A stretch of DNA of 64,000 nucleotides from Bacteroides caecimuris (GTDB lineage Bacteria; Bacteroidota; Bacteroidia; Bacteroidales; Bacteroidaceae). The notes under the pieces are model-generated. The model saw only the letters and a program-made list of their open reading frames with translations. It was not told where the DNA came from and did not search any database. Positions 2,198 to 60,088 of the stretch are shown piece after piece (within the stretch, counting starts at the first letter, position 1; each line of letters starts with the position of its first letter). Where the stretch lies: assembly GCF_001688725.2 (NCBI RefSeq), contig NZ_CP015401.2, positions 434,001 to 498,000 on the forward strand, in the 5' to 3' direction. The position numbers and the translations under genes are program-made.

Positions 2198-2461
2198 TTA
2201 CTTCCAATTAGTTAATAGATAATTTCTTTTGCATTAATACTAAACTTTTTCTTCATTAGCGGCAAACTTGTTTTTGGTTAATATTAAACTATAAATGCAA
2301 GTTCCGTTTTTATAATCAAAGCTTGCATTTATAAAAACGGAACTTGCATTTATATAATCAAAGCTTGCGTTTATAGTTTATAATTAAGCAAATAAAACTT
2401 TGCTGTTAGACTAAAGCAAGTTTGCATCTGATAAACAGCAACTTTTCTATTAATAGGTAAG
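2198..2461. repeat. Intergenic 22-bp phased repeat array A
   Basis: About twelve diverged units in strict 22 bp phase fill the recJ-thioesterase gap. AAACTT-type cores begin at 2242, 2264 and 2286. On the right flank AACTTT, AAGTTT and AACTTT begin at 2396, 2418 and 2440, still in the same phase (110 bp = 5 x 22). The centre holds a perfect 25 bp inverted repeat (2291-2315 and 2329-2353, 13 bp spacer). Related arrays lie at 12.9 and 59.8 kb. No coding potential is seen. Confidence 0.75.
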
Positions 2462-2491
2462 GGGAGAAGAAGCAGTACTTTTCAAATCTAT

Positions 2492-2923
2492 CTATGCTTT
2501 TTGCAAGTCCCGTTCTTCATATTTGCAGATTGCTTCTATCCATTCCTTTGTCAGTGGCATGGATTCATGTTTTTCAAGGTCGAAAGTAACCATAACAGAC
2601 TTGCAGATACATTTTACTTCCTCCGTTTCTGTGTCGATAACCCGTTGGATCAGGTGAAAGCTTTTGGTACCTATCTTAGAAACAGCAGTCTGTACGGCGA
2701 TATGGTCGGATGCGAATATCTGCTTGACGAAATCCGCTTCGATGTGGACAACAACAATTCCGATCTTTTCCCAATCTACTCCGGGGCATACTGAAGCAAA
2801 GTATTCAGTCTTTCCTAAGTCGTAAAAGGAGAAGTAAACAGTGTTGTTGACGTGACCAAATTTGTCTACATCATTGAATCGCAATTGGATAGGTAATATG
2901 TGATGAAATACGATTTCTTCCAT
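2492..2923 (-). CDS. Acyl-CoA thioesterase, hot-dog fold (4HBT/YbgC-FadM type)
   Basis: 143 residues, the normal size of a single hot-dog domain. The N-terminus reads RFNDVDKFGHVNNTVYFSFYD, the usual active-site segment of 4HBT thioesterases (Asp followed by GHVNN on the long central helix). The rest, with EADFVKQI and VQTAVSKIGTKSF beta strands, matches the family. It probably hydrolyses an acyl-CoA or acyl-ACP thioester in the cytoplasm; the substrate cannot be read from sequence. It stands alone between the repeat array and a divergent gene. A consensus -7 box lies about 70 bp upstream on the minus strand. Confidence 0.82.
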   Translation of the reverse strand: MEEIVFHHILPIQLRFNDVDKFGHVNNTVYFSFYDLGKTEYFASVCPGVDWEKIGIVVVHIEADFVKQIFASDHIAVQTAVSKIGTKSFHLIQRVIDTETEEVKCICKSVMVTFDLEKHESMPLTKEWIEAICKYEERDLQKA

Positions 2924-2991
2924 TGTTTTCTCTTAAACATTTTAAATTTGACACAAAAATGGCGCTTTTGCTTTCTTGCTTGAATTTGAGG

Positions 2992-2999
2992 CAAAGATA
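2992..2999 (-). promoter_or_regulatory. Putative -7 box for the thioesterase gene
   Basis: Read on the minus strand the site is TATCTTTG, an exact match to the Bacteroides -7 consensus TAnnTTTG, 69 bp before the thioesterase ATG. I do not see a good -33 TTTG at 19-21 bp, so this is moderate evidence. Confidence 0.45.
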
Positions 3000-3174
3000 G
3001 AGAATTCTAATGATTCTGCTTTTGGAGATAAGGAAGAATTTCGTTAATAATCGTTTAAAGCGGAGTCTGGGGATGCTTCTCCTGTTAGGGAAACAAGCTT
3101 GTAATCATGTAATGGATAAATTATTGTCTGCCAATAGTTGATTTTAAAGGGTAATTTAAAAACGTCAGGATAGA

Positions 3175-3206
3175 TTTCACTAAATGGAATAAATATGTTA
3201 TTTTTG
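3175..3206 (+). promoter_or_regulatory. Promoter of the tsaC-like/clc/fmt/rpe/comEC run
   Basis: TTTC at 3175-3178, 20 bp spacer, and TATTTTTG at 3199-3206 match the Bacteroides -33/-7 consensus. Transcription would begin near 3212, so the TTG-initiated frame opening at 3211 would be leaderless and the ATG at 3238 becomes the likely start. Confidence 0.6.
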
Positions 3207-3237
3207 CGTCTTGTTCTTAACGGAAATTAATCAAGGA

Positions 3238-3801
3238 ATGATAGAAGATATTAAAAAAGCCTGTCAGGTGATGAATGAAGGAGGAGTGATCCTTTATCCC
3301 ACTGATACCGTATGGGGTATAGGCTGTGACGCGACTAATGAGGAGGCTGTACGCCGGGTGTATGAGATAAAGAAACGTGCTGACAGTAAAGCTATGTTGG
3401 TGTTGGTGGACTCTTCGGTTAAAGTAGATTTTTATGTACAGGATGTACCTGATGTAGCATGGGACTTGATTGAAGTTGCCGACAAGCCGTTGACGATTAT
3501 TTATTCCGGAGCACGTAATTTAGCACCTAATTTGCTTGCCGAAGATGGCAGTGTAGGGATTCGTGTGACGAATGAAGATTTTTCCAGAAGGCTCTGTCAA
3601 CAGTTCCGTAAAGCAATTGTTTCTACTTCGGCTAATGTCAGCGGGCAGCCGGGTGCTGCTAATTTTAGTGAAATCAGTGATGAAATCAAATCGGCGGTAG
3701 ATTATATCGTTGGCTTTCGTCAGGATGATATGAATAAGCCGAAACCCTCAAGCATCATTAAGTTGGGAAAAGGTGGAGTGATAAAGATAATTCGCGAATA
3801 A
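3238..3801 (+). CDS. L-threonylcarbamoyladenylate synthase (Sua5/YciO/YrdC/YwlC family)
   Basis: 187 residues from the ATG at 3238. The KxR-SxN type signature of the YrdC fold is visible: ILYPTDTVWGIGCDA, IKKRADSKAMLVLV, GSVGIRV and IVSTSANVSGQPGA. The enzyme makes threonylcarbamoyl-AMP from Thr, bicarbonate and ATP, the first step of t6A37 tRNA modification. The frame stays open from a TTG at 3211, but a consensus promoter ending at 3206 puts the transcript start about there, so the downstream ATG (MIEDIKKACQ) is preferred. The stop codon is immediately followed by the clc ATG, indicating an operon. Confidence 0.88.
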   Translation: MIEDIKKACQVMNEGGVILYPTDTVWGIGCDATNEEAVRRVYEIKKRADSKAMLVLVDSSVKVDFYVQDVPDVAWDLIEVADKPLTIIYSGARNLAPNLLAEDGSVGIRVTNEDFSRRLCQQFRKAIVSTSANVSGQPGAANFSEISDEIKSAVDYIVGFRQDDMNKPKPSSIIKLGKGGVIKIIRE

Positions 3802-5595
3802 ATGAAAGAAGAGAAACTTAGTTTATTGCAGCGTTGCATCAAATGGCGGGAAGCAAACATAAAGGAGAAGCAATTTATCCTGATATTAAGTTTTCTGGTC
3901 GGAATCTTCACAGCGTTTGCAGCTTTGGTATTGAAGTTCTTTATCCATCAGATACAGAATTTCTTGACTGATAATTTTAATGTAACGGAAGCCAACTACC
4001 TGTATCTGGTATATCCGGTTGTCGGTATTTTCCTTGCAGGTTGGTTTGTGCGTAATATTGTAAAAGATGACATCAGTCATGGGGTCACCAAAATTCTATA
4101 TGCCATCTCCCGTAGACAAGGGCGTATCAAGCGACATAATATCTGGTCGTCTACTATCGCTAGTGCCATAACTATCGGATTTGGTGGATCGGTCGGAGCA
4201 GAGGCACCGATTGTACTGACAGGTTCGGCAATCGGTTCCAATCTCGGGAGCGTGTTTAAGATGGAACATCGCACGTTGATGCTGCTCGTAGGTTGTGGTG
4301 CGGCAGGTGCCATTGCCGGTATTTTTAAAGCTCCGATTGCGGGACTGGTATTTACCTTGGAAGTGCTGATGATTGACTTAACCATGTCTTCTTTGCTTCC
4401 CCTGCTGATTTCTGCTGTGACAGCAGCAACTGTTTCGTACATAGTCACCGGTACGGAGGCAATGTTTAAGTTCCACCTCGATCAGCCGTTTGAATTGGAA
4501 CGTATTCCTTACGTTATCTTGCTGGGAATTTTTTGCGGACTGATTTCGTTATACTTCACACGTGCCATGAACTCGGTAGAAGGTGTTTTTGGCAAACTCA
4601 ATAACCCTTACAAGAAACTGGCTTTCGGTGGTGTGATGCTGAGTGTATTGATTTTCCTTTTCCCGCCTCTTTATGGTGAAGGATATGATACGATTAATCT
4701 TTTGTTGAATGGAACGTCTGCCGAAGAGTGGGATACGGTCATGAACAACTCTATGTTTTATGGTTATGGCAATTTATTGCTGGTTTATCTGATGCTGATT
4801 ATCTTGCTGAAAGTATTTGCTTCCAGCGCAACGAACGGTGGCGGTGGTTGTGGTGGTATCTTTGCTCCTTCGCTTTATTTGGGATGTATTGCCGGTTTTG
4901 TTTTCTCTCATTTTAGCAATGACTTTGCTTTCTCCCCTTATTTGCCGGAGAAGAATTTCGCATTGATGGGAATGGCGGGAGTCATGAGTGGTGTCATGCA
5001 TGCTCCATTGACAGGAGTGTTCCTGATAGCTGAACTGACAGGTGGGTATGATTTATTTCTTCCGTTGATGATCGTATCTGTAAGTTCATATCTGACAATT
5101 ATTGCTTTCGAACCTCATAGTATCTATTCGATGCGTTTGGCTAAGAAGGGACAATTGCTGACACATCACAAGGATAAAGCTGTGTTAACGCTGATGAAAA
5201 TGGAAAACGTGGTGGAGAAAGATTTCGTTGTCGTACACCCGGAAATGGATTTGGGGCAACTGGTGAAGGCAATCGCAGCTTCCCATCGAAATGTCTTTCC
5301 GGTGACAGATAAGAAAACGGGTGAATTGTTGGGAATTGTATTGCTCGATGATATTCGTAACATCATGTTCCGGCAGGAACTTTATCATCGTTTCACTGTT
5401 AATAAATTGATGACATCTGCTTCTGCCAGGATTATCGATACGGATGGAATGGAGCAAGTAATGCAAACGTTTGATGATACGAAAGCCTGGAATCTTCCGG
5501 TCGTAGATGAGGAGGGGCGCTATCAGGGATTTGTCTCTAAATCAAAGATATTTAATTCGTATCGTCAAGTGCTGGTACATTTTTCTGAAGACTAA
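3802..5595 (+). CDS. ClC-family chloride channel/antiporter with C-terminal CBS domains
   Basis: 597 residues. The first 420 or so form a ClC membrane core with about ten hydrophobic spans and the three ion-path motifs: GSVGAEAPI (gating Glu kept), GIFKAPIAGLVF and GGGGCGGIFAPSLYLG. Residues of roughly 450-590 form a CBS pair (MKMENVVEKDFVVVHPEMDLGQLV..., VNKLMTSASARIIDTDG...), usually a nucleotide-sensing regulatory module. Presence of the gating Glu is compatible with either channel or Cl-/H+ exchange. It starts directly after the tsaC-like stop with no gap, so it is co-transcribed with it. Physiological role is not evident from context. Confidence 0.9.
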   Translation: MKEEKLSLLQRCIKWREANIKEKQFILILSFLVGIFTAFAALVLKFFIHQIQNFLTDNFNVTEANYLYLVYPVVGIFLAGWFVRNIVKDDISHGVTKILYAISRRQGRIKRHNIWSSTIASAITIGFGGSVGAEAPIVLTGSAIGSNLGSVFKMEHRTLMLLVGCGAAGAIAGIFKAPIAGLVFTLEVLMIDLTMSSLLPLLISAVTAATVSYIVTGTEAMFKFHLDQPFELERIPYVILLGIFCGLISLYFTRAMNSVEGVFGKLNNPYKKLAFGGVMLSVLIFLFPPLYGEGYDTINLLLNGTSAEEWDTVMNNSMFYGYGNLLLVYLMLIILLKVFASSATNGGGGCGGIFAPSLYLGCIAGFVFSHFSNDFAFSPYLPEKNFALMGMAGVMSGVMHAPLTGVFLIAELTGGYDLFLPLMIVSVSSYLTIIAFEPHSIYSMRLAKKGQLLTHHKDKAVLTLMKMENVVEKDFVVVHPEMDLGQLVKAIAASHRNVFPVTDKKTGELLGIVLLDDIRNIMFRQELYHRFTVNKLMTSASARIIDTDGMEQVMQTFDDTKAWNLPVVDEEGRYQGFVSKSKIFNSYRQVLVHFSED

Positions 5596-5628
5596 TCCGT
5601 ACCTTAGTAATGATAACATATTTAGAAT

Positions 5629-6600
5629 ATGAAGAAAGAAGATTTAAGAATAGTATATATGGGGACTCCCGATTTTGCGGTAGAGACCCTGCGTCAATTG
5701 GTAGAAGGCGGTTATAATGTAGTAGGTGTGATTACGATGCCCGATAAACCTGCCGGACGCGGACATAAGATTCAATATTCTCCTGTCAAACAATATGCGC
5801 TCGAACAGAATTTACCGTTGCTTCAACCGGAAAAGTTGAAAGATGAGGTTTTTGTGGAAGCGTTGCGTGAATGGAAAGCCGATTTGCAGATTGTAGTTGC
5901 TTTCCGTATGTTGCCGGAAGTGGTATGGAATATGCCGCGCCTGGGTACATTTAATCTTCATGCTTCTTTACTTCCTCAATATCGTGGAGCTGCTCCTATC
6001 AACTGGGCGGTTATCAACGGTGATACGGAAACCGGGATTACAACTTTCTTTTTGAAGCATGAAATAGATACCGGAGAGGTCATTCAACAGGTGTGCGTAC
6101 CTATTGCAGATACGGATAATGTAGAAGTGGTACATGATAAATTGATGATGTTGGGAGGAAAACTGGTTCTTGAAACAGTAGATGCTATACTGAATGGAAC
6201 GGTCAAAACGATTTCCCAAGAAGAAATGGCAGTTGTCGGTGAACTTCGTCCTGCTCCGAAGATATTTAAAGAAACTTGCCGGATTGACTGGAACCAGCCG
6301 GTGAAGAAGATCTACGATTTTATTCGTGGACTATCACCTTACCCCGCTGCTTGGAGTGAACTGATTGCTTCCGAAAAAGCAGAAAGTGTGGTCGTGAAAA
6401 TATTTGAAAGTGAGAAGGTTTACGAATCACATCAATTGGCTGCTGGAACAATCGTGACTGATGGCAAGAAATTTATGAAAGTAGCAGTACCGGATGGATT
6501 TGTATCTGTTCTTTCTTTGCAATTACCTGGTAAAAAACGACTGAAAACAGATGAGTTACTTCGTGGTTATCACCTGGAAGATGGGTGCAAGATGAAGTGA
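5629..6600 (+). CDS. fmt: Methionyl-tRNA formyltransferase
   Basis: 323 residues, the usual length. It formylates initiator Met-tRNA using 10-formyl-THF. Visible signatures are the N-terminal IVYMGTPDFAVETL, the formyl-transfer site NLHASLLPQYRGAAPINWAVINGD, and HEIDTGEVI with its catalytic Asp, followed by the C-terminal OB-like tRNA-binding domain (KIYDFIRGLSPYPAAW). It lies 33 bp after clc and 67 bp before rpe in the same orientation, so it fits one transcription unit. Confidence 0.96.
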   Translation: MKKEDLRIVYMGTPDFAVETLRQLVEGGYNVVGVITMPDKPAGRGHKIQYSPVKQYALEQNLPLLQPEKLKDEVFVEALREWKADLQIVVAFRMLPEVVWNMPRLGTFNLHASLLPQYRGAAPINWAVINGDTETGITTFFLKHEIDTGEVIQQVCVPIADTDNVEVVHDKLMMLGGKLVLETVDAILNGTVKTISQEEMAVVGELRPAPKIFKETCRIDWNQPVKKIYDFIRGLSPYPAAWSELIASEKAESVVVKIFESEKVYESHQLAAGTIVTDGKKFMKVAVPDGFVSVLSLQLPGKKRLKTDELLRGYHLEDGCKMK

Positions 6601-6667
6601 TCTGACAATAAGATAGAATAAAAACTGTCCCGAACACGAGACAATTAGAACCTAAAATAAAAGAATT

Positions 6668-7318
6668 ATGAAACCGATTATCGCTCCTTCTATTCTTTCT
6701 GCCGATTTTGGATATTTGGCAAAGGATATTGAAATGGTAAACCGCAGTGAAGCAGAGTGGGTACATATTGATATTATGGACGGAGTATTTGTTCCGAACA
6801 TTTCATTTGGCTTTCCGGTACTGAAATATGTAGCGAAGTTAAGTAAGAAGCCGTTGGATGTGCATTTGATGATTGTGAATCCGGAGAAATTCATTCCGGA
6901 AGTAAAAGCATTGGGCGCTCATACGATGAATGTGCACTATGAAGCTTGTCCACATCTGCATCGGGTGGTTCAACAAATCAGAGAAGCTGGGATGCAGCCT
7001 GCTGTAACGATCAATCCGGCTACTCCTGTAGCTCTTTTACAAGATATTATTCAGGATGTGTATATGGTGCTTATTATGAGCGTGAATCCGGGATTTGGCG
7101 GACAGAAGTTTATCGAACATTCGGTAGAAAAAGTTCGTGAACTGCGTGCCCTGATTGAACGGACAGGTTCGAAAGCCCTGATTGAAGTAGACGGTGGCGT
7201 GAATCTGGAAACAGGGGCTCGTTTGGTTGAGGCGGGAGCCGATGCGCTGGTGGCTGGAAATGCTGTCTTTGGTGCACAGGAGCCGGAAGAAATGATTCGT
7301 CAGTTGCATAAATTGTGA
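6668..7318 (+). CDS. rpe: Ribulose-phosphate 3-epimerase
   Basis: 216 residues, a TIM-barrel enzyme that interconverts ribulose-5-P and xylulose-5-P in the pentose phosphate pathway. The protein shows IAPSILSADFGYL, the metal-site HIDIMDGVFVPN, VHLMIVNPEKFI, MSVNPGFGGQKFI and the phosphate-binding VDGGVN...GADALVAGNAVF. All expected catalytic and metal residues (His, Asp, His, Asp) are in place. Its TGA overlaps the GTG start of comEC by GTGA, which implies translational coupling. Confidence 0.96.
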   Translation: MKPIIAPSILSADFGYLAKDIEMVNRSEAEWVHIDIMDGVFVPNISFGFPVLKYVAKLSKKPLDVHLMIVNPEKFIPEVKALGAHTMNVHYEACPHLHRVVQQIREAGMQPAVTINPATPVALLQDIIQDVYMVLIMSVNPGFGGQKFIEHSVEKVRELRALIERTGSKALIEVDGGVNLETGARLVEAGADALVAGNAVFGAQEPEEMIRQLHKL

Positions 7319-9420
7319 CTAATCTATTGAATTCCTTTTATATCCATCGATATCCATTTATACGCCTGCTTATCCCTTGGATAGCAGGCATTTTTTGTGG
7401 AGATCATTTTTTTGATCGTTCATGGGATTCCCTTTGTGGTATTCTCTCCTTTGTTTTTTGGGCTGCATTGTCTTTTGCTCTTTATTTTCTGAAACGCTAT
7501 TCGTTGCGATGGTGTTTTGGGATAGCTATCTCCGCCCTTTGTTTTACGGGAGGATGGCTTGGAATGACTGGACAATTGCAACAGGCTGTCTGCTCTTTTC
7601 CGAAAGAAGAAACTGTGTACCGGGTTTTGATAACGGATGTGCCTCAACCTAAAGAACATACTTACCTCTGTCAGGCATTATTAAAAGAACGTCGTGATAC
7701 TGCGGGCATATATCCGATAGGGCATACTGCGGTTCTTTATCTACAGCAAGATTCGTCTGCCTCCCGTTTGAAGAGTGGAGATGAACTGTTGATTTCTGCC
7801 CGCATTTCTCCTCCTCTCAATAATCGAAACTTTGATGAATTTGATTATGCCCGCTTCCTGATGCGGAAAGGCATTAGCGGAACAGGATATGTTGCATCCG
7901 GGAAATGGATAAAATGCGACGGAATGAATAACTTTGACCTCCAATGTATAGCCAGCTCTTGTAGAAGAAACGTGGTTTCACTTTATCAGGAACTGGGATT
8001 CAACGGGGATGAACTGGCGGTACTTTCAGCACTAACAATAGGAGATAAGACAGAATTAAGTGATTCGGTTCGTGAAAGTTATTCGGTGGCCGGTGCAAGT
8101 CATATTCTTGCTTTATCCGGTTTGCATATCGGACTTTTATATGCAATGATCTTTTTCATTCTGAAACCTATTGCCCGAAGAGGAAATATAGGTAGATGTG
8201 TGCGTTCTGTTTTCCTTCTTGTCTTCTTGTGGACCTTTGCTTTTTTTACAGGGCTTTCTCCGTCGGTAGTACGTTCGGTCAGTATGTTTTCGATTTTAGC
8301 CATGGCGGATATGGTTCGTCGTGAACCTTTATCTTTAAATACATTGGCAGTAGCTGCGTGGTTGATGTTATTCTGCAATCCTGCATGGCTGTTCGATGTT
8401 GGTTTTCAGCTCTCTTTCCTTGCTGTTGCTTCTATCTTGTTTATCCAAAAGCCGATCTACCATTTGATTACCGTGAAAAGTAGAATAGGAAAGTATGTTT
8501 GGGGACTCATGAGCGTGTCTATTGCCGCACAAATAGGAACAGCTCCGCTTGTTCTGTTTTATTTCTCCCGATTCTCCGTGCATTTTCTATTGACGAATTT
8601 AGTAGTTATTCCTTTGATTACGATTATCTTATATGCTGCTGTCGTAATGCTTCTTCTGACTCCTTTTTCCTGGCTTCAGATAGGAATGGCCGGGGGTGTT
8701 AAAAAACTGTTGGAAGGGCTTAATTTCTTTGTCCGATGGGTAGAACAGCTTCCTTACGCTTCTATAGATGGGATTTGGCTTTATCAGTCAGAAGTACTGG
8801 GTATCTATATTGTCATCGCTCTGCTAGCCTATTATTTCATGAATCGCCGATACCGGAATCTGCAAATCTGTCTTTTTTCTATCTTGTTGATGGGGACTTA
8901 TCATGCAACGCTGTATTGGCTGGATCGTCCTCAAACGAGTTTAGTCTTTTACAATGTGCGTGGTTGTCCGGCAGTACATTGCATAAAGAGTGACGGGCAA
9001 TCCTGGATAAACTATATGGATACTCTCTCCAATGAAAAACGTCTGAAACGCATGGCTGCTAATTACTGGAAGCGTCATCACCTTCTTCCTCCCCAAGAAA
9101 TAACAACTGATTGCCGGCATGCTGAACTTAGCCGTCAACAGCAGATTATATCTTATCATGGTTGTCGTGTATGTGTCATAAACGATAACCGTTGGCGAAA
9201 CAAATCCGCCGTTTCTCCGTTATATATTAAGTATCTTTACTTATGCAAAGGATATGACGGTCGTCTGGAAGAGCTCGCCCAAGTCTTTTCTTTCTCTTAT
9301 GTCATATTGGACGCATCCCTCTCGGAATACCGCAAACACCTCTTTGAAAGCGAATGTAAGAAATCCGGTTTGCGATTTATCTCTTTGTCCGACGAAGGTT
9401 CTGTTCGCTTTTTGCTCTAA
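7315..9420 (+). CDS. comEC: ComEC/Rec2-type DNA-uptake channel protein
   Basis: 701 residues starting at a GTG that overlaps the rpe stop. An N-terminal pair of membrane spans and a soluble domain (DUF4131-like) lead into the competence core with GDKTELSDSVRESYSVAGASHILALSGLHIG (written here in part) and FFTGLSPSVVRS, then many hydrophobic helices up to about residue 510. The final ~180 residues do not show the HxHxDH metallo-beta-lactamase motif found in longer ComEC proteins, so this is the short form. The family forms the inner-membrane pore for ssDNA during natural transformation; whether it does so here is not shown. Confidence 0.88.
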   Translation: MTNLLNSFYIHRYPFIRLLIPWIAGIFCGDHFFDRSWDSLCGILSFVFWAALSFALYFLKRYSLRWCFGIAISALCFTGGWLGMTGQLQQAVCSFPKEETVYRVLITDVPQPKEHTYLCQALLKERRDTAGIYPIGHTAVLYLQQDSSASRLKSGDELLISARISPPLNNRNFDEFDYARFLMRKGISGTGYVASGKWIKCDGMNNFDLQCIASSCRRNVVSLYQELGFNGDELAVLSALTIGDKTELSDSVRESYSVAGASHILALSGLHIGLLYAMIFFILKPIARRGNIGRCVRSVFLLVFLWTFAFFTGLSPSVVRSVSMFSILAMADMVRREPLSLNTLAVAAWLMLFCNPAWLFDVGFQLSFLAVASILFIQKPIYHLITVKSRIGKYVWGLMSVSIAAQIGTAPLVLFYFSRFSVHFLLTNLVVIPLITIILYAAVVMLLLTPFSWLQIGMAGGVKKLLEGLNFFVRWVEQLPYASIDGIWLYQSEVLGIYIVIALLAYYFMNRRYRNLQICLFSILLMGTYHATLYWLDRPQTSLVFYNVRGCPAVHCIKSDGQSWINYMDTLSNEKRLKRMAANYWKRHHLLPPQEITTDCRHAELSRQQQIISYHGCRVCVINDNRWRNKSAVSPLYIKYLYLCKGYDGRLEELAQVFSFSYVILDASLSEYRKHLFESECKKSGLRFISLSDEGSVRFLL

Positions 9421-9444
9421 GTACAAAGATTTATCGTACATTTG
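9411..9444 (+). promoter_or_regulatory. Promoter of the DHH phosphoesterase gene
   Basis: TTTG at 9411-9414 (inside the comEC 3' end) and TACATTTG at 9437-9444, with a 22 bp spacer. The start at ATG 9467 lies 23 bp after the -7 box, which also excludes the longer upstream frame from 9254. Confidence 0.55.
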
Positions 9445-9466
9445 CACCTTGATAAAGTTTAAGAGT

Positions 9467-10504
9467 ATGTTGACGAAAGTAATTGAACAAGCCAAAATAG
9501 ACCATTTTACTAAATGGTTTGAAAGAGCTGACAAAATAGTAATTGTATCCCATGTTTCTCCTGACGGCGATGCTATCGGTTCTTCACTGGGATTATATCA
9601 TTTCCTGAACTCACAGGAAAAAACAGTAAACGTAATTGTGCCGAATGCTTTTCCCGATTTCCTGCGATGGATGCCGGGCAGCAAGGATATTCTTTTGTAT
9701 GACCGTTACAAAGATTTTGCCGATAAGTTGATAGCCGAAGCTGACGTAATCTGTTGTCTCGACTTCAATGCACTGAAGCGTATTGACGATATGGCAGACG
9801 CTGTAGCTGCAGCTCCTGCACGTAAAATCATGATCGATCATCACCTGTATCCCGAAGAATTCTGTAAGATTGTAATGTCCTATCCTAAGATTTCTTCTAC
9901 TTCCGAATTGATATTCCGGCTGATTTGTCGTATGGGATATTTCAGTGATATCACGAAGGAAGGTGCGGAATGTATCTACACAGGCATGATGACAGATACA
10001 GGAGGATTCACTTATAATTCGAATAACCGGGAAATTTATTTTATCATCAGCGAGCTGCTTTCCAAAGGAATCGATAAAGATGATATTTACCGTAAGGTGT
10101 ACAATACCTATTCGGAGAGCCGTTTGCGTTTGATGGGCTATGTACTGTCGAACATGACTGTTTATCCGGATTGTAATTCGGCATTAATCACATTGACAAA
10201 AGCCGAACAAAGTAAGTTCAACTATATAAAAGGTGATAGTGAAGGCTTTGTGAATATCCCCCTTTCCATCAAGAATGTTTGTTTCTCCTGCTTTTTGCGG
10301 GAAGATACAGAGAAGCCGATGATTAAAATCTCCCTTCGTTCGGTAGGAACCTTTCCGTGTAATCAGTTAGCCGCTGAATTCTTCAACGGTGGCGGACATT
10401 TGAACGCTTCGGGCGGTGAGTTTTTCGGAACGATGGAAGAGGCAAAAGCGGTCTTTGAGAAAGCGCTTGAGAAGTATAAACCTTTATTAACATCGAAAAG
10501 CTAA
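9467..10504 (+). CDS. DHH/DHHA1 phosphoesterase, NrnA-like (nano-RNase/pAp phosphatase or cyclic-dinucleotide degrading type)
   Basis: 345 residues. Motifs of the DHH superfamily are all visible: SHVSPDGDAIGSS (I), CCLDFNAL (II), IDHHLYPEE (III), GMMTDTGGFTYNS (IV) and the DHHA1 glycine motif GGGHLNASGG near the C-terminus. Members cut short oligoribonucleotides, pAp or pApA to mononucleotides; exact substrate is not predictable here. The frame extends upstream into comEC, but the promoter at 9411-9444 and the start of family similarity (MLTKVIEQAKIDHF) support the ATG at 9467. Confidence 0.88.
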   Translation: MLTKVIEQAKIDHFTKWFERADKIVIVSHVSPDGDAIGSSLGLYHFLNSQEKTVNVIVPNAFPDFLRWMPGSKDILLYDRYKDFADKLIAEADVICCLDFNALKRIDDMADAVAAAPARKIMIDHHLYPEEFCKIVMSYPKISSTSELIFRLICRMGYFSDITKEGAECIYTGMMTDTGGFTYNSNNREIYFIISELLSKGIDKDDIYRKVYNTYSESRLRLMGYVLSNMTVYPDCNSALITLTKAEQSKFNYIKGDSEGFVNIPLSIKNVCFSCFLREDTEKPMIKISLRSVGTFPCNQLAAEFFNGGGHLNASGGEFFGTMEEAKAVFEKALEKYKPLLTSKS

Positions 10505-12854: not shown

Positions 12855-13052
12855 CTTCTCCTTGAGTATTAACAATAAAGTTTCTTTTGATTAAGTCTAA
12901 ACTTCCTTTCGTCTAATAGTAAACTTCTCTTTTGTTATTTACAAACTTAAAATGAAAGCTTGCATTTATAGATTGGAAGGGATGAAAAGCAACTTTACTG
13001 TTAATAAAAAGAAAGTTTGGACTTAATCAAGAGCAACTTTTCTATTAATAGA
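12855..13052. repeat. Intergenic 22-bp phased repeat array B
   Basis: Same family as the array at 2.2 kb. AAACTT cores begin at 12899, 12921 and 12943, with AAAGTT at 12877. The right flank carries AACTTT, AAGTTT and AACTTT at 12991, 13013 and 13035, again 22 bp apart, but offset 4 bp from the left phase. The core contains AAAGCTTGCATTTATA as in array A. It sits between the glmM terminator and the PUL regulator promoter. Confidence 0.72.
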
Positions 13053-33785: not shown

Positions 33786-33849
33786 AATCAATGAAACTAT
33801 GCAATCTTCGTTTACTTCTGTTACATCTTTCATTTGTCCCATATATTGT

Positions 33850-33983
33850 GGGAAAGTATTCCCTCATATTATGGGAATTTATTCCCGCAAAATGTGGGAA
33901 TACTTTCCCTACTAATAGGGAATCTTTTCCCTGTTAACTGGGAATACTTCTCTTGTTAATAGGGAAACTTTGCCTCACTGTAC
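33850..33983. repeat. Array D: tandem 14-bp palindromes every 22-23 bp
   Basis: GGGAA begins at 33850, 33873, 33896, 33918, 33940 and 33962. The first four units are palindromes of the form GGGAANNNNTTCCC (for example GGGAAAGTATTCCC), separated by 8-9 bp AT-rich spacers ending in TAATA-like sequence; the last two are decayed. It lies between two convergent genes, so it is not an ordinary promoter operator. Confidence 0.75.
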
Positions 33984-36216: not shown

Positions 36217-36239
36217 AAAAGCGTCTAATCATCCCGAAA

Positions 36240-36272
36240 CCTTAATCGAACCTTAATCGAACCTTAATCGAA
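36240..36272 (+). repeat. Three 11-bp iterons near the left element end
   Basis: CCTTAATCGAA occurs three times without a gap at 36240, 36251 and 36262, just inside the attachment repeat. Near the right end TCCCGGAAACCTTATTCG (about 41112-41128) resembles TCCCGAAACCTTAATCG at 36232. Arm-type integrase or excisionase binding sites are the likely role. Confidence 0.6.
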
Positions 36273-51951: not shown

Positions 51952-51970
51952 ATGGTTGGAATATCAAACA

Positions 51971-52018: not shown

Positions 52019-52286
52019 TACTTTATTCCACTAGTGGGCACTTTAAATTAAACATCGTTCTTTGAAATCTTTGATAATCGCATAGTTATGTATTTTTTTG
52101 GAGCGTGACGATTTGAATTGAAAAGTTGTTTTAGCTTTGCCCAAAAGCTCAAAACAATGAATCAAGGCAAATATATCTTCGCTCAACTTACAGATTTTCT
52201 TCCCCGTCGTGTCTTTGACGTAAGCGTCTCCGCGATGCCGTCTTGTTTTATTTGTCATTGTCTTCTACCTTTGCCCTCAAAAAAAC

Positions 52287-52730: not shown

Positions 52731-53061
52731 ATACATTAGTTACTACCTTTATCCACGCTATATTGATATGAATAAAGGAATCGAATGTCTTTCTGAATTA
52801 ATCCGCTCACAGATGAATGCCAGCCCCTTAAGCGGAGACGCTTTCCTGTTTTTCGGCAAGAAAAAAGACATGGTCAAGGTACTTCGCTGGGATACCGATG
52901 GATTTATTTTATATCAAAAACGATTGGAAGAAGGCACTTTTGAATTACCCCGTTTTAAGCCTTCCCAAGGGCTGTGTAAGCTTGAATGGGAGATCTTTTT
53001 TATGATAATGAGAGGCATCTCGCCGCGTTCAGTACTTCTGAGAAAACGTTTTAAAATATAG
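52714..53061 (+). CDS. IS66 TnpB (Orf2-like) accessory protein
   Basis: 115 residues starting with MFSLNEYISYYLYPRYIDMN; a GTG four codons upstream is another possible start. The IS66 Orf2 pattern is plain: LSELIRSQMNASPLSGDAFLFFGKKKDMVKVLRWDTDGFILYQKRLEEGTF in part, then KLEWEIFFMIMRGI. Overlaps tnpA by 17 bp, consistent with coupled translation. Required for IS66 transposition, but its biochemical role is not settled. Confidence 0.88.
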   Translation: MFSLNEYISYYLYPRYIDMNKGIECLSELIRSQMNASPLSGDAFLFFGKKKDMVKVLRWDTDGFILYQKRLEEGTFELPRFKPSQGLCKLEWEIFFMIMRGISPRSVLLRKRFKI

Positions 53062-53147
53062 TTTTCAACCGATTAATGCGTTGATATATAAATATTTAAG
53101 TATGAATATGATTTGTTTTACTAACATATTATCCGTATCTTTACACC

Positions 53148-54767
53148 ATGAATTACAAACGGATAATAAGCTTGCTGGAGGAACAATTACGTTTTTCCAA
53201 AGAACAGAACAGGCAACTGGTTGAACAAAACAACCAGCTGCTTGCTCAGAACAAGCGTATGTCCGAACAGTTGTCTGCCCAGTCGGACAATGCCTTCCTT
53301 CTTACCCATCAGGTTGAAACTCTTACAGAAGCACTACAATCGCTTGAAAAAGCCTTTGCTGCAAAGGAATCGTCTATGCAGAAAATGCAGAAGACCAACC
53401 GGGCATTAAGCAAACTGGTAACTAAAAAATCAGAGAAAATAATCCCTGTTCCATCCGCTGACGAACCGGTAGGGAACCGAAAGAAAGAAGCCCCCTCTCC
53501 AAAGGAACGCGGCAACAACAATGCCCGGCGTAAGGAATACTTTGGCCTGGAGATACAAGAACATGATATCTATCCGTCCTGTCCCGGCTTCCAGCCCGAA
53601 TTCGGGGAGTTTTTGAAGATAGTGGATTCCATCCGCTACGAATATATCCCTCCCCGTTTCATCAAACATATTAACCACCGGTATTATTACCGGTATTTGG
53701 GAAATATTATAGCCGGAAGTCTGCCTGCCACGCCGTTGCTGAACTCCAATTATGATGCCTCTTTCATTGCCGGTATCCTGCAATTACGTTATATCTATTC
53801 CATGCCCGTGGAAAGAATTATCAAACTCTTTGCCGAAAACGGTTTCGAAATGAACAAGTCTACCGCACACGGGCTGATCCGGAAAGCGGCACAGATGTTG
53901 GATGTCCTGCAGGAAGTTCTGCGCGATGCCGTCCACGAGGATGATTATCTGCATATGGATGAGACTTATCATACCATATTGGAAAAAGGAGCCCAGTCAA
54001 AGACCGGAAAGAATTCCTGCAAAGGATATATTTGGGCGGCTATGGCAAGCCATTTGAGACTGGTGCACTTCTTTTACGAAAACGGTTCACGGGCCAAGAA
54101 AGTACTCACCCGGTATCTTAAACCAGATTACCGGGGAGCTGTACAGTGTGACGGGTTGGGGGATTACAAAATATTGGAGACCGAAGAATACCCCAATGCG
54201 ATCCGTCTGGCGTGTTTCCAACATTGCAAACGAAAGTTTCTGGATATAAAACAGAATAAGGACGCACAAAAAATTATAGAAATTATCAATAGGTTATATA
54301 GGAAAGAACATGAAATGCCACCTGAATATCCACCTGAACAAGCCTTGGAATACAGAAAGAAGCATGCGATCCCTATATTAAGCGAATTAAAAGATGAACT
54401 GTTGCAAATACAGGCGAAAAAGACAACCTTGCCAAAAAGTAATTTGAGCAAGGCGGTCAATTATACCCTGAATGAATATCCCGCATTGTGCAATTATGTG
54501 CTCAAACCCGAGTATGAACTGGATAACAACGAGATAGAAAGGTTAAACAGGTATATCAGTTTAAGTAGAAAGAACTCGCTATTCTGCGGAAGTCATCAAG
54601 GAGCAAAGAGAGCAGCGCTGATATATTCATTAGCGTGCTCATGCAGACTTAATGGGATAAACTCATTCGATTACTTCAAAGACATACTGAACAAATTTAT
54701 TGAGATTAAACCAAACACTGACAAAAAGGTGATAAGGGAACTGTTACCGGATAAATGGAAGAAGTAA
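53148..54767 (+). CDS. IS66 family transposase (TnpC)
   Basis: 539 residues. A coiled-coil N-terminus (SLLEEQLRFSKEQNRQLVEQ) leads to a zinc-binding-like segment and the DDE catalytic domain with LHMDETYHTILEKG, VQCDGLGDYKILE and NNEIERLNRYISLSRKNSLF, the C-terminal IS66 signature with the catalytic Glu. Length and motifs are complete. The stop codon reaches the right inverted repeat. Confidence 0.94.
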   Translation: MNYKRIISLLEEQLRFSKEQNRQLVEQNNQLLAQNKRMSEQLSAQSDNAFLLTHQVETLTEALQSLEKAFAAKESSMQKMQKTNRALSKLVTKKSEKIIPVPSADEPVGNRKKEAPSPKERGNNNARRKEYFGLEIQEHDIYPSCPGFQPEFGEFLKIVDSIRYEYIPPRFIKHINHRYYYRYLGNIIAGSLPATPLLNSNYDASFIAGILQLRYIYSMPVERIIKLFAENGFEMNKSTAHGLIRKAAQMLDVLQEVLRDAVHEDDYLHMDETYHTILEKGAQSKTGKNSCKGYIWAAMASHLRLVHFFYENGSRAKKVLTRYLKPDYRGAVQCDGLGDYKILETEEYPNAIRLACFQHCKRKFLDIKQNKDAQKIIEIINRLYRKEHEMPPEYPPEQALEYRKKHAIPILSELKDELLQIQAKKTTLPKSNLSKAVNYTLNEYPALCNYVLKPEYELDNNEIERLNRYISLSRKNSLFCGSHQGAKRAALIYSLACSCRLNGINSFDYFKDILNKFIEIKPNTDKKVIRELLPDKWKK

Positions 54768-56033
54768 CGACATCGCGGAGACGCTTACTCTTTGACCGCT
54801 TGGTAGAGAAGTATTCCGGGAATAAGAAAATCAGAACATTCACCTGTTGGAATCAGATGCAGTGCATGATTTTCGGACAACTGACCGCCCGAGACAGTAT
54901 GCGTGACCTTATGCTCAGCCTCGAGGCACACAAGAACAAGTATTATCACTTGGGATTCGGTGCAATAGTTAGCCGTACCAATCTGGGGAAAGCAAACCGG
55001 AATAGAGATTATCGTATCTACGAAGAATTTGCTTATACCCTGATTGCGGAAGCCCGTAATAGCTACAACAAAAATGACTTTGAGGTGAAAGTTGACGGTA
55101 ATGTTTATGCCTTTGATTCCTCCACCATAGACCTTTGTCTGAATGTTTTTGGTGGGCAGAATTTAGGAAATACAAAGGAGGCATCAAACTTCATACCTTG
55201 TATGATGTAAAAACTTCCATACCGACAGTCGTACTGGTAACCAATGCTAAAGTACATGACGTAAACATGCTGGATGAGTTGAGTTATGAAAAGGGAAGTT
55301 TCTATATCATGGATAAAGGATATGTTGACTTCACCCGTTTGCATAAGCTTCACACCTGTGGTGCTTACTTCGTTACACGTGCAAAGGATAATATGAGATT
55401 CCGTAGAATGTATTCCCGTGAAGTCGATAAAACAACCGGAATAAAATGTGACCAGATTGGAATGCTTGAAACGTATAAATCGCTCAAAGCATATTCAGAC
55501 AAACTCAGGCGGGTTAAATACTACGATGAAGAACTGGACAGAGAATTTGTGTTCATCACCAACAACATGGAACTCTCAGCAGAGGAAATTGCTTTGCTAT
55601 ATAAGAACCGTTGGCAGGTGGAACTATTTTTCAAATGGATAAAGCAACACCTGAAAGTAAAATCTTTTTGGGGCACCACGATGAATGCAGTCAAGACACA
55701 AGTGTACTGTGCCATCATAACATACTGTCTGGTTGCCATTGTCGCTTACAAATTGAAAGTCAACCGTCCAATCTACGAAATTCTACAAATTTTGAGCTTT
55801 TCTCTACTGGATAAAACACCTGTAAGAGAGATACTTACCTATTGTGATTACAAAAATGTCAAAGAACTAAATTATAAACAATTGAAAATCAGCTGGGACT
55901 AAGTGCCCAGCAGTGACTTTATTCCTATATTTGATACAGTCCGAAGTTATTTATTTGACTGTAAACAGATTAAAAAGAATCCGCGTGAGGTGTGGGCAAC
56001 GGATAAGAAATTAGTAAGCCTCTGTGGAACACC

Positions 56034-56210
56034 ATGTTTATCACGCTTTCAAATAACTCTTTTACTGGACCTACAAAATTATATAGAAAAATCGATTTTT
56101 TCTACACCGGCACAATAAAAACCGAGGCCAACCCTGAAACTCTGCTTCATACTTCGTTTAATTGTTACGAATGTCCTATATTTAAGGAGTGTAACCACGC
56201 AATGATATAA
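56034..56210 (+). other. Unresolved 58-codon ORF between IS remnants
   Basis: Reads MFITLSNNSFTGPTKLYRK... and ends NCYECPIFKECNHAMI, with three clustered Cys. It may be the tail of a lost gene. I cannot assign it. The other frame of 55903-56118 is open too but is equally unrecognised. Confidence 0.25.
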
Positions 56211-56212
56211 GC

Positions 56213-56521
56213 AACAATAAAGTCAAAAGCAACAGGACGACGCATGGGAACCGATTCCTGCGTCAGATATTGATTGAAATATCCTGGGTCGCATCAAGAA
56301 CCCGAAACTGCTTTTTCTCAAACTTCAGCTACGTGCAATGCACCCAACGCCATAAGAACAAGATGAAGATACAAGTAGCCATTGCCCGAAAGTTATTGGT
56401 TGCGGTATGGCACATGCTGACAAAAGACGAGGATTTTATAGATGTTTACCTCAAGCGGCTTGAAAAGCAGGCGGAATGGCAAAATGATCTTCAAGCATTA
56501 GAATCGTTATTGGTCGGATAG
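56213..56521 (+). pseudogene. IS110-family transposase, C-terminal remnant
   Basis: The open frame gives HGNRFLRQILIEISWVA, then KNKMKIQVAIARKLLVAVWHMLTKDEDF, which is the characteristic C-terminal (Transposase_20) end of IS110/IS116/IS902 transposases. The N-terminal RuvC-like DEDD domain is absent. No start codon context is preserved. It shows that several IS families have visited this spot. The rest, 56522-56884, holds no gene or structure that I can support. Confidence 0.65.
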
Positions 56522-56883
56522 ACCTTTCCGATATACCTCTATCGACAACATAATTACCTTTGTGCTGCCACATGAGCGCGTTTACAAAATTATTGTATCC
56601 ATAGAGGGATTGGACACCGGCGTAGTCCTTTTAGGCTGAAGAGGAAAGTAACAAACTTTACTAGTTCAGACGACAAAATACTTGTCGTCTTAGGCGTTTT
56701 GTGGGAAAATTTACGGACTATAAGTATAATTAATTAGATACAAGTAAGTTACATGCGAATATAAGAGCGGGGGATTTTTCTTTTTAGAGGAAAGGTAGGA
56801 AAAAGTTATGATAATTGAGTTTATATCACGAATATTTTTGGCAGGAGACCGGTTGGTTGTAGATAGCGCGCGGGATTAGAAAC

Positions 56884-56923
56884 AAAAAAACGTGCCTTAA
56901 AGTGCGGATGACTTTAAGGCACG
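56884..56923 (-). terminator. Terminator of alaS
   Basis: CGTGCCTTAAAGT (56891-56903) and its perfect complement (56911-56923) form a 13 bp stem with a 7 nt loop; on the minus strand TTTTTTTG follows. Confidence 0.88.
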
Positions 56924-56954
56924 GTTCTTGTATGGGATGTATGTTACTGCTTTC

Positions 56955-59573
56955 TTAGATACCTGCCAGTTCCAGTACTTTTTCAACTGCCGCCGATAGT
57001 CCGTCAGTATTTTTACCTCCTGCAGTAGCGAAGTGAGGTTGTCCACCGCCGCCACCTTGAATCAGCTTGGCAGCCTCTTTCACCAAGTTACCAGCTTTCA
57101 GGCCACCTGCAACCAAATTATCGCTAAGCATAACTGTCAGCATCGGTTTGCCGTTGTCTGTACTTCCGGCTACGAAGAATAAGTTTTCTGTGATTTCCCC
57201 CCGAAGTTGGAAAGCGATATTCTTCACTACTTCTGCCGGTAGCGGAGCACAGAATTTGATTACTTTGATACCGCGGATCTCTTGTACATTTTTCAGTAGT
57301 CTTTCCTTCAAAGCTGCTTCTTTCTCTTTCATGAAGTCTTCTACCTGCTTTTTCAACCCGGCATTTTCATCCAGATATTTATGGATGGCAATTCTTAAGT
57401 CAGGTGCATTATTGAAGAGAGCCTTCAAGTCGCTAAGTGTATCTTGTATCGTATCCAGCATTTCTTCCACGCGTGCTCCGGTATAAGCTTCAATACGGCG
57501 AACGCCGGCAGCAACAGAACTTTCGGAGATGATTTTCACCATACCGATATTTCCGGTTGCAGCTACGTGTGTACCACCGCAGAACTCGATAGAAGTACCG
57601 AACTGGATCACACGAACTCTGTCGCCATACTTTTCACCAAAGAGGGCGATAGCTCCCAATTCCTTAGCTTCCTCGATAGGAATATTGCGATATTCTTTCA
57701 ATGGGATATTAGCGCGGATTCTTGCATTGACGATATGTTCTACTTTACGGATTTCTTCATCGGTCACTTTCTGGAAGTGAGAGAAGTCGAAACGCAATGA
57801 ATCCGGTGTAACCAATGAACCTTTCTGTTCGATATGTTCTCCCAACACTTCACGCAAAGCAGCATCCAGCAAGTGGGTCGCTGAGTGATTAGCTGCGCAG
57901 GCGGCACGTTTGTCGGTATCCACACATGCCATCATCGGAGCTTCCGGATGTTCGGGCAGCTTTTTGGTAATATGTATCGGAAGATTATTCTCTTTCTTTG
58001 TATCGACCACTTCAATCGTCTCGAACTCGCTCACCAATACACCTGTATCACCTACCTGACCACCACTTTCTGCATAGAACGGAGTATAGTCGAGTACAAT
58101 CTGATACAATGTCTGGTTCTTTTGTCTGATCTGACGGTAACGAAGGATAGAAGCCTCGTATTCAGTGTAATCGTAACCAACAAATTCAGTAGTCCCTTCT
58201 TTCAGTACAATCCAGTCACCTGTTTCGATGGCGGCGGCGTTGCGGGCACGCTGTTTCTGCTGCTGCATTTCTCCGTCGAACTCTTCGATGTTGACGGTCA
58301 TTCCGTTTTCACGGAGAATCAGTTCGGTCAGGTCAAGCGGGAAGCCGAATGTATCATATAAGGTAAAGGCATCTTTACCGCTGATTTCAGTTTTTCTATT
58401 GGCTTTGGTATCTTCCATTGTCTTGTCCAATAGACGGATACCAGTTTCCAAAGTGCGGAGGAATGATTCTTCTTCTTCCTTGATTACTTTTTCAATCAGT
58501 GCCTTTTGTGCAATCAGTTCGGGATAAGCTTCTCCCATGTTGTCGATAAGCACGGGCAGCAGCTTGTACATAAATGCCTGTTTCTGTCCGAGGAAAGTAT
58601 ATCCGTAGCGAACGGCACGGCGAAGGATACGGCGGATTACGTAACCTGCTTTGGCGTTGGAAGGCAACTGGCCATCTGTGATTGAGAATGCAATGGTACG
58701 GATATGGTCGGCAATCACACGCATAGCGATATCTTGCTGCTTGTCTTTTCCGTATTCTGTACCCGACATCGCTGCAATAGCTTTCAGCATTGGCTGGAAT
58801 ACGTCTGTGTCGTAGTTGGATGTTTTGCCTTGCAATGCCATGCACAAGCGCTCGAATCCCATACCGGTATCAATAACCTTGGCAGGAAGCGGCTCAAGAC
58901 TGCCGTCTGCTTTGCGGTTGTATTGCATGAACACGAGGTTCCAGATTTCAATTACCTGCGGGTGATCGTGGTTGACGAGGTCGCGGCCGGAGATTTTGGC
59001 ACGTTCTTCAGCAGGACGGAGGTCGATATGGATTTCGGAACAAGGTCCGCAAGGTCCTGTATCACCCATTTCCCAGAAGTTGTCGTGTTTGTTGCCGTTG
59101 ATGATGTGATCTTTCGGCAGGAACTGTTCCCAATAAGAAGCAGCTTCGTCGTCACGGCCCAATCCTTCTTCAGGACTTCCTTCAAATACGGTTGCATAGA
59201 GATGTTCCGGATTCAGTTTCAAGACTTCTACCAGATATTCCCACGCCCAGCTGATGGCTTCTTTCTTGAAGTAATCGCCGAACGACCAGTTACCAAGCAT
59301 TTCGAACATGGTGTGGTGGTACGTATCGTGTCCTACTTCTTCCAGGTCATTATGCTTTCCGCTTACGCGCAAACATTTCTGAGAGTCGGCGACTCTTTGG
59401 TATTTCGCCGGATGGTTGCCCAAAATAATATCTTTAAACTGGTTCATACCCGCGTTGGTAAACATCAGGGTAGGGTCGTCTTTTATCACCATGGGAGCCG
59501 ACGGAACGATGTGGTGTCCTTTCGACTCAAAGAAATTCTTGAATGAATTTCTGATCTCTTTTGCAGTCAACAT
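56955..59573 (-). CDS. alaS: Alanyl-tRNA synthetase
   Basis: 872 residues from the ATG at 59573 ([29 protein letters not shown]). The class II catalytic domain ([30 protein letters not shown]), the editing domain with [12 protein letters not shown] and [14 protein letters not shown] (zinc ligands), and the C-terminal [15 protein letters not shown] domain are all present. The frame extends 26 codons upstream, but the alaS promoter lies inside that stretch, so the inner ATG is the start. It charges tRNA-Ala and edits mischarged Ser and Gly. Confidence 0.96.
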
Positions 59574-59621
59574 ATCTTCTATATATCTATCGTTGAGGTT
59601 AATATTCTCAAAAAAACTGTG

Positions 59622-59652
59622 CAAAGATAGCTTGTTTTTGCGATATGGCAAA
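59622..59652 (-). promoter_or_regulatory. Promoter of alaS
   Basis: Minus strand TTTG (59649-59652), 19 bp spacer, TATCTTTG (59622-59629): exact consensus. It places transcription near 59616 and fixes the alaS start at 59573. Confidence 0.8.
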
Positions 59653-59780
59653 AGTTTGTTTCAATATATTGTGCGAGGGGGCAATACGGATGTGTCTTCT
59701 AAAGTATCTCATTAATAACCAAATGTAATAACCGGTTTTAATGATACTTACCGATAACAAAGAGGAGCGAATGGCTATTT

Positions 59781-60088
59781 TTACTTCTCATTCGTTAATA
59801 ATCCACTTCTGGTTCATTAATAGAAAACTTCTTTTCCATTAATAGTAAACTTCTTATTATCAGTATGTAAACTTGTTTTTTATTAATTGTAATCTATAAT
59901 TGCAAGCTTTGATTATAAAAACAAAGGCTTTGATTCTATAAACGCAACTTGCAATTATACAATCAAAGCTTTCGTTTATAGTTTGCATCGAGTGAAAAGA
60001 AAGTTTCCTCCCTATCGGAAGGAAGTTTACACTTAATGGGCAGTAAGTTTTTCATTAATAGCCAGGAACGCAACTGTTAATACTTCTT
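59781..60088. repeat. Intergenic 22-bp phased repeat array C
   Basis: The longest and clearest of the three related arrays, about 14 units. AAACTT or a near match begins at 59781, 59803, 59825, 59847 and 59869; AAGTTT begins at 60001, 60023 and 60045, still in exact 22 bp phase (132 bp = 6 x 22). ATTAATAG recurs between the cores. The centre (59890-59985) holds AAGCTTTGATTATA-type palindromic segments as in array A. Confidence 0.78.

Follow-up and report, generated by a model that had tools for sequence, protein, structure and literature searches.

We asked what holds the repeat step of three distant intergenic arrays in the chromosome of Bacteroides caecimuris at about 22 bp while their letters drift. 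The DNA analysed (the window, 64,000 nt) is positions 434001–498000 of contig NZ_CP015401.2, in a single-contig genome of 4,839,927 bp, and an earlier examination of its letters (the sequence-only reading) had placed the arrays at 2198–2461, 12855–13052 and 59781–60088. They belong to a dispersed family of mirror-symmetric elements with one geometry, which is constrained in place, occurs across the genus, is targeted by an insertion sequence (IS), undergoes internal inversions and shares its period with a wider class of arrays. We lean towards regarding each array as a phased scaffold of dyad-symmetric sites for an oligomeric dyad-binding protein, an interpretation that is somewhat probable on the comparative evidence below.

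The arrays share a 248-bp quasi-palindromic frame

All three arrays stood out from shuffled DNA. Self-match at a lag of 22 bp was 0.42, 0.49 and 0.47 in arrays 1, 2 and 3, compared with 0.29–0.31 in dinucleotide shuffles (z 3.9, 5.5 and 7.1; 0 of 1000 shuffles as high for each), and self-symmetry under reverse complementation was 0.60–0.70, compared with at most 0.49 in 100 shuffles of each. In array 1, lag 21 (z 4.9) was stronger than lag 22. The elements and their cores are placed as follows.

2210..2457, + strand: array 1, full 248-bp element (profile score 166.8 bits on +, 145.6 bits on −)
2289..2376, no strand: core of array 1, four dyad units at a 21-bp step (alignment columns 80–167)
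12867..13050, + strand: array 2, both arms, core cut to one unit
59815..60062, + strand: array 3, full 248-bp element, lying upstream of the gene for alanyl-tRNA synthetase (56955–59576, −)
59894..59981, no strand: core of array 3, four 21-bp units

A complete element forms a quasi-palindrome 248 bp long: each arm has AAASTT boxes every 22 bp, and the core consists of four 21-bp dyads. The boxes read AAACTT or AAAGTT in the left arm and AAGTTT or AACTTT in the right; they lie at 2242 and 2264 and at 2396, 2418 and 2440 in array 1, and at 59825, 59847 and 59869 and at 60001, 60023 and 60045 in array 3. Each core unit has the form TATAA-half-site-AANTT-half-site-TTATA, and of the 312 half-sites in the cores, 305 have CG, TG or CA as their step. 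The centre, previously described as non-repetitive, is made up of these four dyads, whose 21-bp step is marked by columns 90/111/132/153 and 94/115/136/157, which do not vary among the 39 aligned arrays. The proposal that the phase crosses the centre in exact multiples of 22 holds only when the count runs between the first A of AAACTT and that of AAGTTT or AACTTT, and not between equivalent boxes on either side of the core (columns 58 and 189), whose centre bases are 131 bp apart. Coding sequence was rejected as an explanation: 21 bp would equal seven codons, but the arms step by 22 bp.

The frame is far more uniform than the letters within it. Among 40 arrays from six genomes (deduplicated at 88%; L120, L148 and L038 were dropped from the first alignment), mean pairwise identity is 65% and the minimum 53%; 35 arrays have no gap, four have a one-base deletion and L140 has 42 additional bases. 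The alignment used here, A1, kept 39 rows after near-duplicates had been dropped at 88% and then L140; 45 of its 248 columns are invariant. A profile built from sequence only (R1) matched 119 loci, of which 15 with a partial match were dropped and 104 kept, and once their ends had been lengthened by 1–2 bases to the model ends, 97 of these 104 near-full arrays, and 87 of the 94 distinct ones, were 248 bp long.

The three arrays are not alone in this genome. BLAST with array 1 as query gave at least 69 rows in the same genome (40 of 63 candidates scored), merged by eye into ~36 places, with 73–81% identity in the best non-self rows, and R1 gave 78 matches over both strands. For close reading, 33 regions of this genome were retrieved.

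Spacing and putative contact columns are constrained in place

Orthologous arrays were recognised by their matching flanks, and one pair per locus was compared with flanks of 100 bp, after removal of duplicate loci (L201, L202, L203, L206, L024 and L009) and of lengths outside 240–255. Such syntenic arrays, which the sequence-only reading had asked for in sister species, were found; array 3 and its counterpart in genome G009, for example, are 98.8% identical. With flank divergence limited to ≤15%, 16 of 21 pairs were kept. Arrays accumulated substitutions about as fast as their flanks (203 in 3964 sites and 206 in 3027 sites, respectively), whereas only 4 insertions or deletions (indels) were seen in the arrays and 50 in the flanks. 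This corresponds to 0.020 indels per substitution in arrays versus 0.243 in flanks (p 3.5e-10), or ~12-fold fewer, and bears out the earlier suggestion that sequence has decayed while spacing has not, with selection on geometry. All 21 pairs gave ratios of 0.033 and 0.244 (394 substitutions and 13 indels in arrays, 393 and 96 in flanks), and the same trend was seen when 35 overlapping, non-independent pairs were pooled (808 substitutions and 34 indels in arrays, 729 and 177 in flanks). The flanks are partly coding, which tends to lessen this contrast.

Constraint was also visible at single columns. Across 17 orthologous pairs, with none skipped, conserved columns changed at 1.1% and the remaining columns at 9.9%. 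In the five pairs independent of the column definition, the values were 8/405 (2.0%) and 120/835 (14.4%), so that contact columns change 7–9 times less than the rest in these two sets. At the pyrimidine–purine columns of the half-sites, 25 transitions and 2 transversions were counted among orthologous pairs, omitting the one flipped pair and pairs not exactly 248 bp long. Selection thus acts in place on both the spacing and the contacts. Because spacing is kept while letters drift, a row of evenly spaced protein contacts is indicated, and the array contacts may well be of this kind.

In the phased scaffold that we favour, about three AAASTT boxes per arm, at 22-bp steps and in mirror order, flank four palindrome-like sites at 21-bp steps. 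An oligomeric dyad-binding protein would sit every two helical turns on one face of the DNA and build a nucleoprotein filament or wrap ~250 bp long; one oligomer might cover the whole array, which could then act as a local insulator, boundary or expression modulator. Loose recognition, through a half-site step of CG, TG or CA, would tolerate letter changes within the scaffold, and template switching between inverted repeats would swap or invert units without a change in length. We prefer this scaffold because the frame is kept where contacts would need it, the two arms are mirror images, coding of the letters inside is loose, and copies with no visible mobility sequence are under selection in place.

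Units are inverted, gained and lost within arrays

If the letters turn over within a fixed frame, by what route do they change? Several length differences are close to whole units: +44 bp in L143, +42 bp in L140, +22 bp beside array 3 in G009, and −62 bp in array 2, which has one core unit here and in G009 and four (62 bp more) at the orthologous place in G021. This deficit equals three units less one base; by eye, the right arm of the G021 orthologue is interrupted by an IS66-like insert.

Inversions in place were also found. Core columns 110–137 of L028 are the reverse complement of the orthologues in G009, G082, G109, G114 and G134, and inverting them reduces 10 mismatches to 0 (12 to 2 for G134), a gain reached in 0 of 150 simulations when tested against L152 and L182. 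Further flips are centred on unit 2 (L172/L187 and L119/L139, 0/150 simulations each), on unit 3 (L114/L187, 1/150) and on the centre of the element (L172/L183, 1/150). Among the 16 pairs tested, some of them chosen from the top of a ranking, six gained at least 5 (at most 1/150 simulations; about four separate events), five gained nothing, and the other five gained 2 to 5, which was reached by 1 to 33 of 150 simulations. Three pairs (L129/L190, L188/L190 and L133/L191) were taken as frame artefacts of the ungapped comparison and left uncounted. Inverted similarity is greater within arrays than between them (z 6.5), with peaks centred on units 2 and 3, and direct similarity shows no such excess. 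Excerpts of a study of polymerase template switching describe the homogenisation of inverted arms and the inversion of spacers (PMC8604942); the inversions in our arrays carry this signature, and both features are seen in the array core.

These same observations could support a purely mutational account, in which slippage and quasi-palindrome template switching maintain the repeats and no function is needed. The flips in L028, L172/L187 and L119/L139, the excess of inverted, but not direct, similarity within arrays and the published behaviour of template switching all fit it. It leaves the rarity of small indels and the slow conserved columns unexplained, however, and the five column-independent pairs, a small set, speak against it. 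By eye, boxes also persist in genera where the spacers have been replaced, and only six of the 16 inversion-tested pairs show a clear gain, with five showing none. We therefore consider this account distinctly unlikely. Template switching as described in those excerpts (PMC8604942) is a mutation mechanism; it accounts for letter turnover but not for selection on spacing.

An insertion sequence targets the arrays, and some lie in a transposable element

The window holds one copy of the IS concerned.

60276..61596, − strand: ISAs1-family insertion sequence, 1321 bp, starting 214 bp past array 3

In 13 of the 33 retrieved loci the array is truncated, and 11 of the breaks lie within 2 bp of an end of this 1321-bp element. 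Insertions into arrays, with recurrent insertion points, were noted at L023, L030, L032–L037 and L039–L041. We counted 17 near-identical copies or fragments, a figure that may miss fragments without a protein match: 12 in arrays, two in tandem in L301, the one beside array 3 and two apparently in genes. Given that arrays make up ~0.17% of the genome, 12 of 17 corresponds to a binomial p of 4e-30. Eight insertions with both ends visible show, by eye, 9–10 bp duplications of array sequence. The tandem copies (L301:1–3901; G000:C1:3957500–3961400) lie within a different 22-bp palindrome array (TTTGACTATAG/CTATAGTCAAA).

Could the arrays simply be recognition targets of ISAs1, kept as a safe haven for it? 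The concentration of copies and the duplications speak for this, as does the description, in excerpts of PMC1525189, of repetitive extragenic palindromic (REP) elements as known IS targets. But the array is broken by an insertion, only 1 of 5 copies of a second ISAs1 type lies in one, and array-bearing relatives have few or no close ISAs1 copies (no match in G127 and G001, one full copy in G009). That this is what maintains the arrays is hardly credible.

A more serious contender treats the array as the body of a non-autonomous transposable element (a miniature inverted-repeat transposable element, MITE), with its geometry serving transposition alone and its old copies being relics. An IS5-like MITE of ~540 bp with terminal repeat GAGCCTGTTTAAA does contain an array in this genome, with a 3-bp TNA duplication in 8 of 11 readable copies, and the BrickBuilt element of Porphyromonas gingivalis is presented, in excerpts of PMC4596501, as a MITE whose ends are IS5-like and which holds a 23-nt minisatellite. 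This explanation is nevertheless unlikely. MITE-type arrays were flagged in the present genome and G009 alone (15 extracted, 13 here and 2 in G009, plus about six truncated ones here by eye), and none among the extracted arrays of any other genome. In 78 flanks of 39 arrays, no terminal inverted repeat was strongly conserved; a weak motif occurs within ~30 bp of the array. Ends of the Tn7 or Mu type were rejected on the same ground, as these flanks have no strong common terminal motif. Relics should also gain indels as the flanks do, which the arrays do not, and the unbiased sample described below holds many unrelated words.

Distribution of the family and points against the proposed scaffold

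Profile searches over 40 genomes used stricter filters, under which weak matches were lost. R1 matched 55 of 119 genomes sampled from the genus and, in a family-wide sample, 41 of 151 genomes and 14 of 30 genera. The order-wide sample gave matches in 5 of 198 genomes, two of them from the genus and the three others all weak (E 1e-4 to 1e-3). At equal effort over both strands, six genomes held 78 (the present one), 30, 56, 37, 12 and 12 matches. An exact pattern (20 stretches) identified carriers in Bacteroides xylanisolvens, B. acidifaciens, B. faecichinchillae, B. bouchesdurhonensis, B. congonensis, B. faecis, B. finegoldii, B. faecalis and one uncultured Bacteroides. In nine loci from other genera, examined by eye, the 22/21-bp frame and the AAASTT boxes are kept and the half-site words are different ones, for example ACCAAACCTTGGT (L236), ACGCCGGTGGCGT (L237) and TTCGCAAGTTGCGAA (L235).

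A phage origin was rejected, as the exact pattern had no match in viral_contigs. It did match three faecal records labelled 'Bacteriophage sp.', which carry no annotation, and 11 'plasmid' records, all of them Bacteroides finegoldii; we suspect these to be chromosomal pieces.

Several results weigh against the scaffold interpretation. Copy number varies by species, from 78 both-strand matches here to 12 each in G109 and G096; 64 of the 119 genus genomes had no match under the stricter filters; and, by eye, G001 holds both neighbours of one site with no array between them. Because copy number varies and this site lacks its array, no copy looks essential and the arrays look dispensable. None of four genomes showed a significant bias along the origin–terminus (ori–ter) axis (for ter bias, one-sided P was 0.09, 0.10, 0.86 and 0.15, with dnaA as proxy for ori and incomplete array lists). 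As for the constraint, the indel ratio of single pairs was lower in the array in 10, tied in 4 and higher in the array in 2 of the 16 pairs; arrays with large losses fell to the profile filter (104 kept of 119 loci matched); and in 12 of the 17 pairs in the column comparison, one of the two arrays had itself been used to define the conserved columns.

The lack of a significant ori–ter bias in the four genomes also led us to reject, on grounds of placement, a macrodomain or nucleoid site. The sequence-only reading had offered two functions; one of them, an array of protein contacts, gains support from the conserved columns and may be correct, and the other, a nucleoid or topology element, is not favoured by placement or by the varying copy number.

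The family is one of a broader class of 22-bp arrays

The window contains a fourth array with the same step and other letters.

33838..33975, no strand: 22/23-bp phase, GGGAA-N4-TTCCC alternating with TTAATA

Its lag-22 self-match (z 6.7) was not equalled in 1000 shuffles. It is a member of a broader 22-bp class, with letters unlike those of the main family.

An unbiased sample was drawn as 20 evenly spaced 20-kb stretches each from the present genome and from G026, a congener without an R1 match, and noncoding segments were scanned at lags 12–44 for at least 60% self-match over 66 bp. In 41 kb of noncoding DNA here, 10 segments showed lag 22, 4 showed lag 21 and 5 showed lag 44, with at most 2 for any other lag; two of the lag-22 segments belong to the main family, full arrays of which lie in stretches L312 and L314. 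In 46 kb from G026, 9 segments showed lag 22, with 2 at lag 23, 1 at lag 21, 3 at lag 44 and none at any other lag, and the sampled stretches had no match to the main family. Under the same scan, block-shuffled DNA gave no lag-22 segments, and 200 kb of E. coli K-12 (22 kb noncoding) gave no such segments. The prior expectation of a 22-bp autocorrelation above shuffled DNA, and of many arrays with one phase and variable sequence, is thus borne out beyond the window.

By eye, the words of class members include GAAACTNTAGTTTC, TATGAGAAAAAATACTCATA, CCCACGTGT and TTATAGCTAA here and CTTTTGTACAAAAG, AACATGTACATGTT and GACCTGCGCAGGTC in G026, and reverse-complement symmetry exceeds the 95th percentile of noncoding DNA in 6 of 10 lag-22 loci here and 8 of 9 in G026. 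The main family is therefore one family within a broader class of 22-bp arrays built on other palindrome words. Six of the 20 G026 stretches (L331, L335, L337, L343, L349 and L350) hold a second array family, in which the word CTTTTGTACAAAAG is spaced at 22 bp. In the present genome, two of the hits, from L313:8348 and L323:17344 onwards, are far-apart, near-identical copies of a repeat with 22-bp self-match and GAACGAAGGTGA-like steps, which does not look palindromic.

Loci with lags 21–23 favour convergent intergenic regions (10 of 23, versus 35 of 194 background segments, p 0.002), which raises the question of whether the arrays work as RNA, transcribed into one long hairpin or several in a row (a terminator, stabiliser or small RNA) with a preference for gene 3' ends. 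Many class words could, by eye, form 5-bp stems, and most arrays of the main family (28 of 40) have T opposite A or A opposite T at mirror columns 51/196. The strongest association between the arms, however, is at columns 58/189, which are G with G or C with C in 31 of 40 arrays and cannot pair. The best mirror-arm windows (z 3.6 and 3.5) are within the tail of 25,200 windows, profile scores are nearly equal on both strands, and a scan of the window with Rfam 15 at the gathering score matched tRNA only and left the arrays unmatched. An RNA function is very improbable, and a whole-array hairpin in particular was set aside, with the strongest mirror columns carrying the same base and arm covariation being weak.

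Returning to the scaffold, one could tentatively extend it to Bacteroides chromosomes at large, as a general layer of palindrome arrays, locked to a 22-bp phase and as yet unnamed, that would number of the order of 100 per genome if the sampled stretches are extrapolated. Several word classes would coexist, each with its own binder from an expanded, perhaps HU-related family of dyad-binding proteins, and serve as addresses for local chromosome folding or insulation, with words and binders turning over together between genera. We regard this extension as possible but doubtful.

Relation to known repeats

To our knowledge, a fixed frame with word turnover has no known counterpart, and a search of titles and abstracts in the open-access literature found no description of such arrays in Bacteroides. 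Plasmid iterons, partition centromeres and Mu- or Tn7-type ends place sites of ~20–22 bp two helical turns apart in rows or mirror rows. Unlike these, the arrays occur in dozens of chromosomal copies with drifting words, and no replication, partition or transposition gene family recurs among the nearest open reading frames of 42 arrays in a self-comparison. The repeats are strongly diverged with short conserved boxes, rather than near-identical as in clustered regularly interspaced short palindromic repeats (CRISPR); cas genes were not searched for.

We file the arrays with dispersed extragenic palindromic repeats. REP sequences are short single palindromes; the arrays, in contrast, are AT-rich, set about ten phased sites in a frame of 248 bp and are associated with another IS family. 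They share with REP sequences and bacterial interspersed mosaic elements, as covered by excerpts of PMC1525189, a dispersed extragenic palindromic nature and a role as specific IS targets, here for 12 of 17 ISAs1 copies.

Closest in appearance is BrickBuilt, which the excerpts of PMC4596501 describe as a dispersed intergenic 23-nt minisatellite with 19 copies in one P. gingivalis strain and IS5-like ends on some. According to the same excerpts, its repeats are direct and number 1 to 22.8 copies, it is reported from P. gingivalis and P. gulae only, and full transposable elements do not split it; direct repeats of 22 nt are also mentioned for strain W83. Like BrickBuilt so described, the array element is a dispersed intergenic tandem repeat of Bacteroidales with a unit near 22 bp. 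Unlike it, the arrays are fixed in length, with arms in mirror symmetry about a 21-bp core, and their spacing is kept as letters drift; they step by 22/21 bp, and 97 of 104 are 248 bp long, where BrickBuilt varies in the number of its direct 23-nt repeats.

Dispersed palindromic repeats are commonly regarded as debris. Across genera of a family of gut bacteria, these arrays keep their spacing and contact letters in place as the other letters drift, and arrays with unrelated words repeat the same 22-bp step. The arrays explain the destinations of an insertion sequence and provide a natural example of template-switch evolution. If the scaffold interpretation is correct, the arrays could be used to retrieve a binding protein directly, and a DNA-organising or regulatory system acting across the whole Bacteroides chromosome would become testable.

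Neighbouring genes and accompanying repeats

Array 1 lies between a RecJ-like gene (237–2075, −) and a thioesterase-like gene (2492–2923, −). A gene related to HU (PF18291/TIGR01201) adjoins 6 of 42 arrays, at least four of the six being orthologous by their flanks; the array is 19–63 bp from this HU-HIG gene in L010, L114, L124, L131, L143 and L149 (one member tested). With at least four of the six cases being orthologues, HU-HIG was kept as a lead only and not adopted as the candidate binder, and a literature search on it found no account. A VirE-like gene, named by eye, adjoins arrays L113, L132 and L151. The repeat CTATCACC is present in one flank, in constant orientation to the array, in L125, L128–L130, L133 and L144 (G030, one in G001), and composite repeat structures containing it may exist. 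In the window itself, three perfect copies of an 11-bp unit, AACCTTAATCG, occupy 36238–36272, 11 bp being half of the 22-bp step.

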